From contig JALCBJ010000010.1 in NCBI GenBank assembly GCA_028066595.1, positions 1 to 64,000 on the forward strand: a stretch of 64,000 nt of DNA. Direction: 5' to 3'. Below, piece by piece: positions 3,862 to 13,684 of this stretch (positions are counted from its first letter, which is position 1; each line of letters opens with the position of its first letter). Position numbers and translations under genes: made by a program. Below the pieces are notes generated by a model. The model ran no database searches and had not been told where the DNA came from. It saw nothing but the letters and a program-made list of their open reading frames with translations. The DNA is from Thermoanaerobaculia bacterium (GTDB lineage: Bacteria; Acidobacteriota; Thermoanaerobaculia; Multivoradales; J023).

Positions 3862-4060
3862 ATGCCACCGTGGTCGCCTGGACACACTGGAGGCAAAGTG
3901 TCTCTCCTTCGGCGGGACCTCGGCCTATGCGGCTGTCTCGAAGGAACTCCTCGAAGTGGTACAGCCGGGAGCTATCGAAGCCGCAGTGCTGGCAGAAACG
4001 CAGGCACAGGCTACTCGTGACCAGCGAGTTCGGGCTCTGATGCTGGAGATCCGGGCGTCA
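3862..4060 (+). pseudogene. Remnant of a serine site-specific recombinase (zinc-ribbon and C-terminal part)
   Basis: In the frame beginning near 3862 the peptide reads RYQCHRGR...KCLSFGG, followed by [20 protein letters not shown] and VRALMLEIRA. This arrangement (C-x-R, then C-L-S-F-G-G, then a helical stretch rich in Leu/Glu/Ala) matches the zinc beta-ribbon and the following helix of large serine recombinases of the phage/transposon type. Only about 65 codons survive; there is no catalytic resolvase domain and no start. Homology is lost near 4060, where the oppositely oriented IS3 remnant begins. Identification rests on pattern recognition without a database search. Confidence 0.6.
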
Positions 4061-4300
4061 CCATGTTCTTGTCAACGCTTCCTTGAGAGCCTGCTTATCG
4101 AGAGTTACCTCCGCTAGAGCAGCTTTTGAGCCGCCGGTTCTCCTGCTCCAGGTCCTTGAGCCGTCGAGCCTCGTTGACACCCACCGTACTTGGCTTTCCA
4201 CCGGTAGTACGTCCCCTCCGAGATCCCAAGGAGGTTTTTGAACCGCTCCGAAACGCGATCGCAACGAGCCCGACCCAGCTTCGTGAGCTAACCATGACTC
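4056..4300 (-). mobile_element. IS3-family transposase orfA remnant (frameshifted)
   Basis: Reading the minus strand gives three pieces of one IS3 orfA protein, each in a different frame. They are GISEGTYYRWKAKYGG, then VNEARRLKDLEQENRRLK, then LAEVTLDKQALKEAL. Together they make the helix-turn-helix end and leucine-zipper region typical of OrfA. Frameshifts lie near 4182 and near 4130, and an in-frame TAG lies upstream, so no protein can be made. No orfB (DDE) part and no terminal inverted repeats were found. The element sits between the truncated galactokinase/recombinase and the sulfatase pseudogene, so it marks an old insertion or rearrangement point. Confidence 0.75.
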
Positions 4301-4334
4301 GGCCCGCCCGAGCTCGTCTAAGCAGAGAGCGAGT

Positions 4335-5871
4335 TCAGGGCGGAGTCGAATCCGCGCCTTCCTTGGCGAGACCTAGAGAATCCAAGACGAGATGTCCCAG
4401 CTCTGTTCGGAGTCGGCTTCTGACGTCAGCGAAGCCTGGATCGTCGACCCGATTGGTCATCTCGTACGGATCCGCTTCTAAATCGTAGAGCTCGTGGAGC
4501 TCGGGGTGGTGGACCCAGTGGATGTATTTGTACTTCTTGGTACGCACGACCCGGTAGTCCATGTCGACGAGCCAGGGCATCGGGTTCTCGTAGGTATAGA
4601 ACTCGATCAGGATGGACTCTCGCCATTCGGCGCCACGGTTGCTCAGAAGGGGTAGCAGCGAACGGCCCTGGATGTGATCGCCCTCCGGGACTCCTGCGAG
4701 TTCCAGGAGAGTGGGAGCCAGATCGACCGAGAGCACCAGCTCGTCGGGCGTCGAGCCACCAGCGACCAGCGGTGGATACCGCAGCAGTAGAGGATTGCGA
4801 ATCGAGTCCTCGTACGGCAGCCTTCGTTCGAGGCTCAGCCCGTGCTCGCCGAAAAGAATCCGTTGTCGCTGGAGAGCACCACGACGGTGGAATCCAGCAC
4901 TCCCTGCGATTCGAGGGTCATGAAGATGCGGCCGAGGCTCTCGTCGACGGCGAGGTACATTTCTGCGCGCCGCGGATCGTCTCCTCACTGGTACCGGGGT
5001 CGAGGATTCCGCGGAATTTCTCGGTGATGTCGGGGGACGCGCGGTAGGCGAGGGCCTGCCGCAGGGCTGCCTTGCCCGATAGGTCGTCTGGCGAACCGAC
5101 CGCGTTGGCGCGACGGGTGAACACCTCGTTCTCGTAGCGCCCCCGATGGCGTTCGGCCGGCAAGTAGCGCATCGGTTAGCTGAGATCGACGGAGCCGTCG
5201 TCCAGCTGTCGTGCTTCGGGATGAACGGCCTTGTGCGCCAGGTAGAGGAGAAACGGAGCGTTCCGCTCTCGCTCGATGAACTCCACCGCCCGGTCGGTCA
5301 GGAGATCGGTGACATAGCCTTCGACCTCTTGTAGCTCCCCGTCCTCGAATAGGAAAGGAACGTGAGTTCGACCCTGGCCGGGTAGGCCGGCCCATTCGTC
5401 GAACCCGGGCCGCGGTGTGGGATCGTTGCCCATATGCCACTTGCCGACGAAGGCGGTGTCATAGCCCGCGGCGTCGAGGGCCAGGGGGAAGGTCTCGAGC
5501 CGGTGACTCAGGAGGTTGCGCGCCACGTTGTCGATGATGCCGTGGCGCGACGGGTATTGGCCGGTCAGGAGGCTGGCGCGGTTGGGGGAGCAGAGCGGGA
5601 CGGCGTGGAAGGAGTTCAAGAACATGGCTCCTTCCCGTGCGAGGCGATCAGTATGTGGCGTTTCAAGGTAAGGGTGACCACCGGCGCCGAACTCGTCCCA
5701 ACGCAGATCGTCGACCACCACGACCACGATGTTGGGCCGTGGGCGGTGGGCCTCGGCGACCGGCTCGGGTTCCGGCGCGATGTCTTGCTCGCTGACGGGT
5801 TTCTGGTCTCGACAGGCCGCGACCAGGATCAGCAGCAGCCCGAGAGCCGTAAGGGTCGTGGCTTTGCGCAC
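4335..5871 (-). pseudogene. Cysteine-type sulfatase lipoprotein, inactivated by one nonsense codon and two frameshifts
   Basis: The minus strand encodes a type I sulfatase. It has a lipoprotein signal (LLLILVAAC), the metal-binding start PNIVVVVVDDLR, and the formylglycine motif C-S-P-N-R followed by ASLLTGQYPSR. Other conserved segments are FVGKWHMG, a central DNGFF/FGEHGLSLERRLPYEDS segment and a C-terminal YDLEADPYEMTN. Three lesions break it: an in-frame TAA at 5176-5178 (probably from CAA), a one-base loss near 4966 (ETIR/RRAEMYLAVDESLG), and a one-base loss in a T run near 4855 (DNGFF/FGEHG). A GTG at 5871 is the likely original start, though an ATG at 6048 is in frame. Homologues hydrolyse sulfate esters of sugars or small molecules. 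Two of the lesions are single-base gaps that could be sequencing errors, but the TAA could not. Confidence 0.8.
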
Positions 5872-7773: not shown

Positions 7774-8754
7774 TCAACTCCCGGACGGACCTTCGAAGAT
7801 CTCCTTGGCGGTGTAGGGGCTTCCCGCCCGCTCCCAGAAGCTGCCACCGACGTATCGAAAACCACGTTCGAGGGCAGTGAGCCGATCGATATCGTTCGTC
7901 TCGAGGCGCAGTTCGAGAGAAGCCAGGTTCTCGCGAATCCGTTGTGCGTGGGTGGACTTCGGTATCACCGCCGTACCCCGTCGGAGTGCCCAGCTCAGCA
8001 AGACCTGTGCTGGCGATGCACCGACTCGATCGGCGATTTCGCGGACGGTCGGATCTTCGAGGAGGATCGGTTCTGACCGACCTCTCATCGACTCCGGCCG
8101 GGCGGGCGAACCGAGGGGTGAGTAAGCGGTGACGAAGATTCCGTTCTTTTGGCAGAAATCGACCAGCGCGGTCTGCTGCAAGTACGGGTGCAGCTCCACC
8201 TGAAGTACCTCGGGCCCGAGGTCGGACGTGGCCATCAGATGCTCGATGAGGGGTGGGCTGAAGTTCGATAGGCCGATGTGTCGGCACAACCCACGCGACA
8301 CCGCGTCTTCCATCACCTTCCAGGTCGTTTCGATAGGCAGGTCCCGCGGAGAGAAGAAATCCTCCGACCTCTTGGGTCGCACGATGCCCTTGCGAAAGGC
8401 GACCGGCCAATGGATCAGATAGAGGTCGAGGTACTCGAGGCGAAGATCCGCCAGGGTCCTCTCGAGCGCTGGGATCACGTGTTGCGGCTCATGGGAGTCG
8501 CTCCACAGCTTCGACGTCACCCAGACGTCGCCCCGCGCCAGGTCTCCGGAGCCGAAGGCTGTTTCCAGCGCCTCTCCCACCTCGGCTTCGTTGCCGTAGA
8601 TCGAAGCGCAGTCGATATGGCGATATCCGGCCGACAGAGCCTCTAGCACCGCGGCACCCACTTCACCGGGTTTCGAATTCCAGGTACCCAGTCCGAAGAC
8701 GGGCATCCGGTCGCCGTTGGGAAAGTCGAAGATCATGGATGAGGAGTATTCCAT
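7774..8754 (-). CDS. Aldo/keto reductase
   Basis: This 326-aa cytoplasmic enzyme belongs to the aldo/keto reductase superfamily, which reduces aldehydes and ketones with NADPH in a TIM barrel. The four catalytic residues are all present: Asp48 and Tyr53 in HIDCASIYGNEAEVG, Lys82 in VTSKLW, and His115 in LYLIHWP. The segment GLSNFSP and the C-terminal cofactor-binding part PKSTHAQRIRENL are also typical. An alternative start at codon 7 is possible. The gene is divergent from the exported protein gene at 8834 and is followed within 6 bp by the ankyrin gene. The physiological substrate cannot be inferred. Confidence 0.9.
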   Translation of the reverse strand: MEYSSSMIFDFPNGDRMPVFGLGTWNSKPGEVGAAVLEALSAGYRHIDCASIYGNEAEVGEALETAFGSGDLARGDVWVTSKLWSDSHEPQHVIPALERTLADLRLEYLDLYLIHWPVAFRKGIVRPKRSEDFFSPRDLPIETTWKVMEDAVSRGLCRHIGLSNFSPPLIEHLMATSDLGPEVLQVELHPYLQQTALVDFCQKNGIFVTAYSPLGSPARPESMRGRSEPILLEDPTVREIADRVGASPAQVLLSWALRRGTAVIPKSTHAQRIRENLASLELRLETNDIDRLTALERGFRYVGGSFWERAGSPYTAKEIFEGPSGS

Positions 8755-8833
8755 GCGTCGAGCCCGGCGATGTCGTGGGCTCAGCCGGCCGGACGCCTCG
8801 GACTACCTTGGTGGCGGATGGCAGAATAGCGGG

Positions 8834-9613
8834 ATGTTCCGATTCCGAATCGTCTGGGCGTTGATGCTCTCGGCAGCAATACCCGTCTCGGCGTTGGCCG
8901 ACTCTGGCTCGTCTCCGATGTTCACGGCCGTGATGCCCGATATCGTGGCTCGCTCCATCGAGCTTCACGGCGGCGACTTGTTCCGGCGTTCGGAGGTGAA
9001 TTTCCAGCTTTGCTCGCGAAGCGGCTGTGCCGAGGTTCGCGTGTGGCGCCGAGGCGGTCGGTATGAGCACGAGGTGGAGGGTCGGCTCGGTGGTGCGCTT
9101 CGTCGCCTCCTCGTGACCAACGATGCGGTGAAGCTCTGGACAGAGGCAGGTGAGAGTACGTCGATCGCCCCGGAGGAAGAACAGAGCTGGCGCGATGCGG
9201 CGACGTCTCGGATGTATCACGCGTTTCTGCCGTTCCGGCTGGCCGACCCGAGTGTGCGCTTCGCAGACCTCGGCGTGGAGACCTGGGGCGAGCGGGAGCT
9301 GCATCGTGTAGCCGTGGGATTCGAGGCCGGCACCTCGAGCGCCGACTACGATCAATGGGCGTTTTGGTTCGACGCCGAAACGGCCCGGTTGGAGCAATTC
9401 GCCTACAGCTATCGGGGCTCGCCCGACGGGCTGAGGTTTCGCCAGCTACATCGATTCCGCAGAGTCGAAGGGCTGCTGTTCGCCGACCAGGTCAATCTCG
9501 GCTGGGAGGGTCCGGGTCTGTCGGTCGCCGAGCTGAGTCCGGAGTCGATATCTCGTCTTCGAGAGGTTTCACGGGTGGAGTTTCGTGAGCTGAGCGTTCG
9601 GATCCTGGACTGA
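8834..9613 (+). CDS. Exported LolA-like/DUF6503-like protein of unknown function
   Basis: The 259-aa product has a cleavable signal peptide (FRIVWALMLSAAIPVSALA). The mature part begins with a DIVARSIELHGGDLF segment and continues with FQLCSRSGCAEVRVWRRGG. This layout (short helix, then many antiparallel beta strands ending in a FRELSVRIL strand) is like the periplasmic outer-membrane-lipoprotein-sorting fold and the DUF6503 family. I recognise no catalytic motif. The start at 834 bp past 8000 was chosen because the signal peptide begins there; an in-frame ATG at 8717 would add 39 residues antisense to the aldo/keto reductase start. The 3' end overlaps the tail of the convergent msrA gene by 122 bp. 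Confidence 0.65.
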   Translation: MFRFRIVWALMLSAAIPVSALADSGSSPMFTAVMPDIVARSIELHGGDLFRRSEVNFQLCSRSGCAEVRVWRRGGRYEHEVEGRLGGALRRLLVTNDAVKLWTEAGESTSIAPEEEQSWRDAATSRMYHAFLPFRLADPSVRFADLGVETWGERELHRVAVGFEAGTSSADYDQWAFWFDAETARLEQFAYSYRGSPDGLRFRQLHRFRRVEGLLFADQVNLGWEGPGLSVAELSPESISRLREVSRVEFRELSVRILD

Positions 9614-10433
9614 ACTCGTTCTGCGACCCGGCTTCGGAGCTCGACACACTCATCCTCCGGCGCAGGATCTCTGGGGCCATGCCGAGCTCGTCGGCGGCGT
9701 CGATCAGGTCGCCGTCGTCGCCGAAGGGACCGAGCCAGGAGTTAAGTCTCGTAGCGACTGTTGATTGTAGGAATGCATCGACTGGATCCAGCTGACGGCT
9801 TGCGTGTGTGGCTGGCTGCCGGGTGTATGTGGCCGGCTCCCGGGCCGCCAGCTCTTCGATCAGATCGCCGTGTCCGCGCTGAAGTGAGAATTTCTGATGC
9901 AGGCGTTCGGCTGGCCAGAACGCCGGGTTGGGAACGATGTCGACGTAGACGGTCTCTCCGCGTTGGCGGTGGACGGCGTCCTTGGACCGTTCTGCTATCG
10001 CGCGCTGAGCAGATCCATGCGGCATGATCGCCAGGTGAACCCGCGGATCGGGCCCGGGAGGAATATGGTTGGGCTGACCGCTCCAAAAGACCTCGAGCAG
10101 CGTCTCATACGAGATAAGCGATGTATCGAAGGTCACCTCCACTGCTTCCCGATGGTCGCCGAGATGATGGTAGCTCGGGTCGGGCTGATCGCCTCCTGCG
10201 TATCCCACCCTTGTCGAGATCACACCGTCCAGACCCCCGAACCGGGAGTCTCCGCCCCAGAATCAGCCGACGCCAAAGACGGCGGTGTCGATCGGTGGAG
10301 AGGAGTCTCGCTCGAGGGCGATCGAGGTACTCGTCGGGGGAGCGCCGATGACGAGAAGGGCTGTCGCCAGCAATGTTCCCATGCGACCGGCGCTACGCAC
10401 CGAGATGCCTGTGTGATGACGGGTGATACTCAT
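9492..10433 (-). CDS. msrA: Selenocysteine-containing, exported peptide methionine sulfoxide reductase MsrA
   Basis: MsrA reduces methionine-S-sulfoxide in proteins. The minus-strand frame starts at ATG 10433 after a GGAGG ribosome binding site 4 nt away. It encodes a signal peptide (MGTLLATALLVIGAPP) and then TAVFGVG, TGA, FWGGDSRFGGLDGV and ISTRVGYAGG. The TGA at 10263-10265 (codon 57) occupies the catalytic cysteine of the MsrA motif G-C-F-W-G. The rest of the domain is intact: PSYHHLGDHREAVEV, ISYETLLEVFW, and FWPAERLHQKFSLQ. The C-terminal STVATRLNSWLG extension is typical of one MsrA subgroup. The whole 313-codon frame has no other stop and no cysteine codon. Selenocysteine insertion is therefore inferred; without it, translation would end after 56 residues. 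About 50 low-complexity residues follow the conserved domain and overlap the convergent gene. If UGA is ignored, the only start is a GTG after the active site (10223), which would leave a catalytically dead protein. Confidence 0.88.
10231..10251 (-). promoter_or_regulatory. Candidate bacterial SECIS hairpin in msrA mRNA
   Basis: On the minus strand the bases right after the UGA fold into a 9-bp stem. AGACUCCCG (10251-10243) pairs with CGGGGGUCU (10239-10231), with one U-G wobble and a GUU loop whose first base is G. The loop begins 20 nt after the UGA. Known bacterial SECIS elements lie inside the coding region just 3' of the UGA, with the loop about 16-37 nt away and a guanine in the first loop positions. 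SelB would bind here and bring Sec-tRNA to the ribosome. The stem codes for the conserved residues DSRFGGL, so part of the pairing could be coincidental. Confidence 0.7.
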
Positions 10434-10482
10434 GGCGCCTCCGCTAAGAAGTGTCCGCGTGCTCTGGGACTACGTCGGAACC

Positions 10483-12364: not shown

Positions 12365-12922
12365 CTAGGTGCGGGGGTCGAGAATCAGACAGGTCGTGGT
12401 GCCGTGAGCGATCAACTGACCGTCTTCGTTCTCGATGCGACCTTCGGCGATGGCGGTCGACCTTCCCATGTGGACGACATAGCCGCGCGCCAGGATCGGA
12501 CCGGACTCGGCCGTCAGCGAGCGTACGAGATTGATCTTGAACTCGAGCGTCGTATACGGCCGTTCGATGGGCAGCTTGGTATGGACGGCGCAAGCCATGG
12601 CCGTGTCGAGCAAGGTGGCGAAGATGCCGCCATGTACGGTACCGAGCGGGTTGTAGAGGCTCTCGTTGGGATGGCACCGGAAGAGGCTGTGCCCTTCCTC
12701 GAACTCCACGGCCTGGATGCCGAGGAGACTCGCGATGGGAGGCTGGGGCAGCTCGCCGCCGAGCATCGCACGGAGGAGCTCCAACCCGGTGGCATAGCGA
12801 CCACTGGCGACCGCGCGGCCGTAGATCGACGGGTCGAAGTACTCGATCGTTCGCGTATGCGGTACACCGAAGTCGAACGGTTCGGACGAATCCGACGCGG
12901 AGGGCCCTTCTCGTTGGTTCAT
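12365..12922 (-). CDS. PaaI-like hotdog-fold thioesterase
   Basis: From the ATG at 12922 this is a 185-aa hotdog-fold acyl-CoA thioesterase of the PaaI/YdiI type. The core has NPLGTVHGGIFATLLDTAMACAV, in which HGG and the following acidic residue form the active region. It then has TTLEFKINLVR and GRSTAIAEGRIENEDGQLIAHGTTT (cited in part). The upstream sequence is open in the same frame and encodes a truncated amine oxidase, so a fused 439-aa reading frame exists from 13684. I chose 12922 because a complete thioesterase with the usual N-terminal extension starts there and an AGGA motif lies about 9 nt upstream. Such enzymes hydrolyse aromatic or medium-chain acyl-CoAs. Confidence 0.75.
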   Translation of the reverse strand: MNQREGPSASDSSEPFDFGVPHTRTIEYFDPSIYGRAVASGRYATGLELLRAMLGGELPQPPIASLLGIQAVEFEEGHSLFRCHPNESLYNPLGTVHGGIFATLLDTAMACAVHTKLPIERPYTTLEFKINLVRSLTAESGPILARGYVVHMGRSTAIAEGRIENEDGQLIAHGTTTCLILDPRT

Positions 12923-13684
12923 GGATCCGATCCTATCGGACTCGCGGCGACCGTCGGCTCCCGAGCGGACCGATTCCACGTGTGCCGACATCTCGATGCG
13001 CAGATCTCGAGCCAAGTGGCGGATGATCTGATCGTAGCCGGCGGGGAAGAGTACATCGCCCCCGGCGAATCCCCCGTCGTCGCCGGCGGTCGCCGACAGC
13101 TGATCGAGATTGGTGGCAGCTTCGAGCTCCAGCGTGGCGCGGAACCACGAGAGCAGACGCTGCTCGAAGTCGTCGAGCTGCTCGTCCGCCAAGAGTCGCC
13201 GAAGCCCTTCGCCCACGGAGATGTCTTCGCCACGCCACCAAGCGCCTCGTGCGAGCCTCGTGAGTAGGGACTCGAACTCCTCACTGTACTCGTCGAGTAC
13301 CTCGTCGCGTATCCGCTGGCCGTCGGTGTCGAACGGCGTGACCTCGTAGTCCGTCGGCCGGGTTTCGATGCCAAGATCTCGGGCCAGAGCCGTGAGCGGA
13401 TTGCCCTTGGTTCCGTGGATCCAAGACGCGCCGAGATCCACCGCGGCGCCCAAGCTGCGGTCCGTCCATACGCGTCCGCCGACGCGATCGCGAGCTTCGA
13501 GGACCACGGTTTCGAACCCGCGGCGCGCCAACTCGCCAGCGGCGGCGAGCCCGGAGACGCCTGCACCTAAGATCAGTACTCGACCACGGTTTCCGCCCTG
13601 AGTTCCGTGCATCTCGCGTCTCGTTGTAGCCAGCGTTGCCAGCAGGGTAAGCAGGAAACTCCTTCGGTCGAGTTGGCCTCGCAT
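12923..13684 (-). pseudogene. Flavin amine oxidase, N-terminal half only, fused in frame to the thioesterase
   Basis: The frame starts at ATG 13684 after an AAGGAG site with a twin-arginine-like leader (DRRSFLLTLLATLA). It contains the FAD dinucleotide-binding fold VLILGAGVSGLAAAGELARRG and the GG-doublet motif DRVGGRVWTD, as in monoamine and polyamine oxidases. It continues to FPAGYDQIIRHLARDLRIEM, then homology ends at about 12960. An intact enzyme needs ~200 further residues, including the substrate cavity and the C-terminal FAD-binding strand, so this is not an active oxidase. A deletion that joined it to the following thioesterase gene is the simplest reading. It could still be translated as a fusion. 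Confidence 0.7.

Follow-up and report, generated by a model that had tools for sequence, protein, structure and literature searches.

The interrupted msrA frame and its surroundings

The minus strand of the window, by which we mean the whole 64,000-nucleotide stretch of DNA that was analysed, carries a frame for a methionine-S-sulfoxide reductase (MsrA) that is broken by a single internal UGA. The frame begins at an ATG, holds 56 open codons ahead of the UGA at 10263-10265 and runs onward to a TGA at 9492-9494. From ATG 10433 it encodes MSITRHHTGISVRSAGRMGTLLATALLVIGAPPTSTSIALERDSSPPIDTAVFGVG-U-FWGGDSRFGG, with GVG-UGA-FWG around the invariant MsrA cysteine. The original prediction had placed an ATG, a GGAGG site, the UGA and an open frame here, and all four proved exact on re-reading. 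With the UGA read as selenocysteine (Sec), the features of the gene are as follows.

9492-10433, minus strand: predicted coding sequence of Sec-MsrA; 313 residues, one of them Sec, followed by the stop codon TGA (9492-9494)
10438-10442, minus strand: GGAGG, Shine-Dalgarno-like, 4 nt 5' of the ATG; similar sites precede the ATG of orthologues
10431-10433, minus strand: start codon ATG
10317-10433, minus strand: predicted signal peptide, residues 1-39, arginines and then hydrophobic MGTLLATALLVIG; assigned by eye
9876-10286, minus strand: MsrA (PMSR) domain, residues 50-186
10263-10265, minus strand: UGA, predicted Sec residue 57, in the position of the catalytic Cys within GCFWG
10232-10250, minus strand: bacterial SECIS stem-loop GACUCCCGGUUCGGGGGUC, lying within the coding frame
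10236-10246, minus strand: core of the SECIS, CCCGGUUCGGG
9630-9869, minus strand: C-terminal helical domain, approximately residues 189-268, as in Clostridium oremlandii MsrA

With the UGA treated as a residue, the protein matched Pfam PMSR over residues 50-186 (profile positions 1-147 of 153, E 3e-29) and scored 102.6 bits against a cut-off of 23.7 for PF01625. The frame remained open to 9492, in line with the claim of a full MsrA domain without a further stop. As had also been foreseen of a usual annotation, a mechanical list of standard-code open reading frames contained just a fragment at 9492-10223 (243 aa, from GTG 10223), whose PMSR match (E 2e-19) starts only at profile position 23 and has lost the active site. 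There is no cysteine among all 313 residues of the read-through protein and hence no resolving Cys.

A redox partner of the sort expected for MsrA was sought among the neighbouring genes and not found; they encode a DUF6596-bearing sigma factor, a YCII protein, a DUF6503 protein and an aldo/keto reductase. At its 3' end (9492-9613) the MsrA frame shares about 120 bases with the convergent DUF6503 ORF at 8717-9613, and the overlapped tail of the protein has a low-confidence structure prediction. At 12365-13684 of the minus strand, a 439-aa ORF links half of a flavin amine oxidase, the N-terminal one (profile positions 1-235 of 443), to a 4HBT hotdog thioesterase domain; it is an odd fusion or a remnant.

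Family, fold and active site of the read-through protein

Family and fold were computed for the read-through protein, which came closest, whether by sequence, profile or fold, to the MsrA of Clostridium (Alkaliphilus) oremlandii, a reference of the 1-Cys type (PDB 4LWJ, 4U66, 4W8C). That enzyme is a native selenoprotein without Cys whose Sec form has about 20 times the activity of the Cys form (PMC4479559), and bacterial Sec-MsrA with the motif GUFWG/H is covered in a 2026 review (PMC13188914). A profile of six proteins from the host's GTDB family matched 4LWJ at E 5e-74 over almost the whole length, compared to ~1e-35 for classical MsrA; the window protein alone matched C. oremlandii MsrA at 2e-32 to 6e-31 and others at 1e-18. 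In the AlphaFold2 model, whose mean pLDDT is 74.5 (85-97 across most of the MsrA domain, with a drop to 60 in residues 121-130), the C-terminal helices of C. oremlandii MsrA recur. The first seven Foldseek matches, with TM 0.81-0.86 by target length, were crystal structures of that enzyme, except for 7c13 chain A, a chain named MsrA by sequence search.

The phylogenetic tree placed the window protein in a 26-row one-Sec clade (support 100/100) that excludes classical MsrA and the two Cys copies of the host. Ordinary Cys MsrA (PF01625, TIGR00401), including these host copies (L020, L021), share the fold and the GxFWG motif, but they lie on the other side of the tree and have a TGY codon and a VCSGTTGH-type loop, without the SECIS or the C-terminal helical domain. 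The window protein and C. oremlandii MsrA have in common the catalytic Sec, the lack of Cys, a short LGDH loop, the C-terminal helical domain and the catalytic Glu. Since every tested feature of the C. oremlandii-type group was found, the window protein is, on sequence and modelled structure, a divergent member of a group of bacterial selenium enzymes, with one Sec and no Cys, that was known before. The original prediction was right in calling it an MsrA, while the nearest characterised enzyme is the one-Sec MsrA of C. oremlandii and not a generic GCFWG MsrA.

Several differences from C. oremlandii MsrA were also found. The window protein begins with an added predicted signal peptide, ends in a disordered tail of about 45 residues, carries Phe-Ser where C. 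oremlandii MsrA has Tyr140-Tyr141, and has lost the RQYM of loop L2. In the alignment, the stretch R88-Q89-Y90-M91 of C. oremlandii corresponds to R-V-H-L, with the tyrosine replaced by valine. Among the aligned UGA genes, this L2 tyrosine is missing only in the window protein and in L025, which form a pair (support 100/99) on a long separate branch of 1.06 changes per column. The UGA MsrA of other phyla (L054-L061, L064, L065, L068, L069) and L140, from the same class, have the same UGA, SECIS and domain order but keep the tyrosine; the aligned ones share 30-40% identity with the window protein. The L2 tyrosine is no criterion of PF01625 and bears instead on activity, which could be reduced, or the substrate changed, by its replacement with Val.

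It could therefore be argued that the gene encodes a real selenoprotein that is no longer an efficient MsrA and acts, through a changed pocket, on other sulfoxides or as a different thiol/selenol oxidoreductase. The absence of RQY(M) from this pair alone and its long branch speak for such a shift, but we consider it unlikely because the window protein keeps Sec57, Phe58, Trp59, Tyr88 (Tyr47 of C. oremlandii) and Glu96 (Glu55) when aligned with the C. oremlandii enzyme (PMC4479559). In addition, either Tyr82 or Tyr134 can act as proton donor in Neisseria meningitidis MsrA, where Glu94 is the acid (PMC6210582). We equate Tyr134 of that enzyme with Tyr90 of C. oremlandii; as either tyrosine can donate the proton, the loss of one may be tolerated. 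A working MsrA thus remains the favoured reading, and L025 and the window protein offer a natural test of the L2 tyrosine in enzymes whose nucleophile is Sec.

Conservation of the UGA and its probable decoding as Sec

UGA conservation, the SECIS and the Sec machinery were computed from genome sequences. Orthologues with a UGA were found in 5 other species of the same GTDB family (G001, G002, G003, G005, G006), and in each a TGA at this GxFW position is the only internal stop. At 35-46% identity to the window protein, their divergence speaks against a recent error that all of them share. The upstream frame is kept in these relatives, with a TA(T/V)F peptide before the UGA, and most of L024-L029 have an ATG and a purine-rich site upstream; loss of this frame in close relatives would have counted against the original prediction. 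Between the window gene and L025, the conserved T, A, V, F and last G codons before the UGA differ in the third base only (ACC/ACG, GCC/GCT, GTC/GTT, TTT/TTC and GGC/GGT), which argues for selection on translation upstream of the UGA as well.

A profile scan of GTDB contigs yielded 80 MsrA loci, 12 of them with TGA at the Sec position, from Actinomycetota, Bacillota, Thermodesulfobacteriota, Nitrospirota, Chloroflexota and Planctomycetota. With UGA relatives in at least six phyla, Sec-MsrA is less rare than the original prediction held in limiting it to a few algae and bacteria. Two further UGA genes (L140 and L157) belong to the window's class, and in a search of 149 genomes of that class all other strong TGA matches lay inside the window's family. 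The comparison set of 20 UGA genes comprises the window gene, those of the 5 family species and 14 more. L030, listed with one TGA in a first table, turned out to be an ordinary GCFWG MsrA. An Anaerolineae locus (L062, approximately 4001-4656) has the UGA and the SECIS motif with the frame broken between them, and was left out of the 20.

The stem-loop starts 15 nt, and its core 19 nt, past the first base of the UGA. Counting the U of UGA as 1, CCC[AG]GTT[CT]GGG occupies positions 20-30 in all 20 UGA genes, and all 67 Cys genes lack it; in the same clade, the Cys members have a near-identical peptide (DARFG, DASFG) written in codons that pair poorly. Helix 16-23/27-34 covaries, with 13 double-changed cells compared to 4.1 in shuffles and a covariation score of 0.276 compared to 0.128; none of 500 shuffles reaches the observed values. 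The outer pairs of the stem covary, and every pairing measure drops when the partner is slid by 1-3 columns; the counts of doubly changed pairs and of pair types do not exceed those in the shuffles. Against synonymous recodings, folding was more stable than expected in the UGA genes (mean z -1.39, 18 genes) but not in the Cys genes (mean z -0.09, 40 genes). For the window gene alone z was -1.29 (p ~0.11, not significant), so single-sequence folding energy is not decisive. The pattern TGA-N16-CCCRGTTYGGG occurs once in the 7.5-Mb host genome, at the Sec-MsrA gene, and this uniqueness, together with the UGA conserved in five family species, indicates more than chance. Over 396 genomes of the phylum, the same pattern appears in about 1 genome in 10, mostly elsewhere; as it is not specific by itself, we rely on position and covariation, by which the stem-loop after the UGA is a bacterial SECIS.

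An exchange of Sec and Cys was seen within one small clade. Sutcliffiella (Bacillaceae; L068) has the UGA and a SECIS, with CGG, TTC and GGG at the SECIS site, where its Cys-coded relatives have different codons. The bacilli Domibacillus, Cohnella and Gottfriedia (L067, L070, L071) encode the same MsrA with Cys and without a SECIS.

The original prediction had proposed searching the genome for selA, selB, selC and selD, and in the host genome (7.5 Mb, 95% complete) we found all four. Profile searches detected selB (324 bits, cut-off 242), selA (452 bits, cut-off 268) and selD (355 bits, cut-off 125), and a tRNA-Sec (selC) with anticodon tca (UCA) is present. The selD gene (L017, G000:C115:9442-10362) has an in-frame UGA of its own, at TCG-U-AAKL.

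These data bear on two readings without Sec. If a Cys codon had mutated to a stop, the locus would be a pseudogene yielding no more than a dead fragment that starts at GTG 10223, and the longest standard-code ORF does begin there without the active site; we judge this very improbable, since the UGA is kept between open stretches of frame in 20 genes from different phyla, a covarying SECIS follows it in each of them and in no Cys gene, and the genome has the Sec machinery. Reading of the UGA as tryptophan, or non-programmed readthrough, for which we found no supporting point, has a negligible chance of being correct, as Cys homologues have their catalytic Cys in this column, the gene has a SECIS and the genome the Sec machinery, and the same frame uses UGA as a real stop at 9492-9494. 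UGA conservation, machinery and SECIS all favour the Sec-containing MsrA that had been proposed, its UGA falling on the Cys column of the alignment as expected, and by the sequence evidence the in-frame UGA almost certainly encodes the active-site Sec of an exported MsrA.

Predicted export, proposed catalysis and a candidate reductant

Export, catalysis and the reductant are what we infer about the enzyme's function. Its N-terminus has a hydropathy of 2.09 over 13 residues and a possible cleavage site SIA|LE, and neither a twin arginine nor a lipobox was seen by eye. The hydrophobic core, the plausible cleavage site and the lack of both motifs point to Sec-type export. Of the two routes named in the original prediction, the Sec export route is thus the likely one and Tat less so, given the missing twin arginine. 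Many UGA relatives in other phyla and in the class also have a hydrophobic N-terminus, some of them lipoprotein-like, and none of the four other family orthologues (L026-L029) has a clear signal-like N-terminus.

We conclude that the gene very probably encodes an exported methionine-S-sulfoxide reductase in which Sec is the only redox residue, decoded through SECIS and SelB. In the proposed mechanism, SelB and Sec-tRNA(Sec) would decode the UGA at 10263-10265 with the aid of the SECIS stem-loop. Once exported, the enzyme would use Sec57 to attack methionine-S-sulfoxide, and Glu96 (equivalent to Glu55 in C. oremlandii MsrA) would serve as the acid; the products would be methionine and a selenenic acid. 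Since the protein has no Cys, an external thiol must regenerate it, probably a glutaredoxin-like one.

Glutaredoxin regenerates the C. oremlandii enzyme (PMC4479559). A dimer formed through the catalytic residue is a further mark of MsrA of this type. The sole glutaredoxin-family match in the host genome, of which 5% may be missing, is L165 (G000:C148:69106-69279), with a signal-like start MKWIVCLLSASLLSFVATDGFARAEE and a CSVC motif. Given how the C. oremlandii enzyme is regenerated, this protein of predicted export is a candidate partner, and that it serves as the envelope reductant of Sec-MsrA is a plausible hypothesis only. More tentatively, and with less than even chances, the window protein could represent an exported, Cys-free Sec-MsrA sub-lineage that has lost the L2 Tyr, works in the cell envelope together with a dedicated exported glutaredoxin and possibly acts on substrates other than those of known MsrA.

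Routine annotation leaves an inactive fragment at this locus, and the lineage's use of selenium and the possible repair of envelope methionine by a selenoenzyme would thereby be overlooked. The Sec-MsrA clade is widespread, often with a predicted export signal, and its SECIS is clear enough to spot beside the motif.

Two further resemblances appeared in the same genome. A match to the NCBIfam VPGUxxT family was weak and confined to the MsrA-like C-terminal part, with no full member in the genome, and was set aside. L166 (G000:C28:84049-84483) is a short exported MsrA-like protein with YCYW in place of GCFW. It falls below the Pfam PMSR cut-off and matches the C-terminal part of NF041383 at 2e-24, and is possibly an MsrA relative with a different function.
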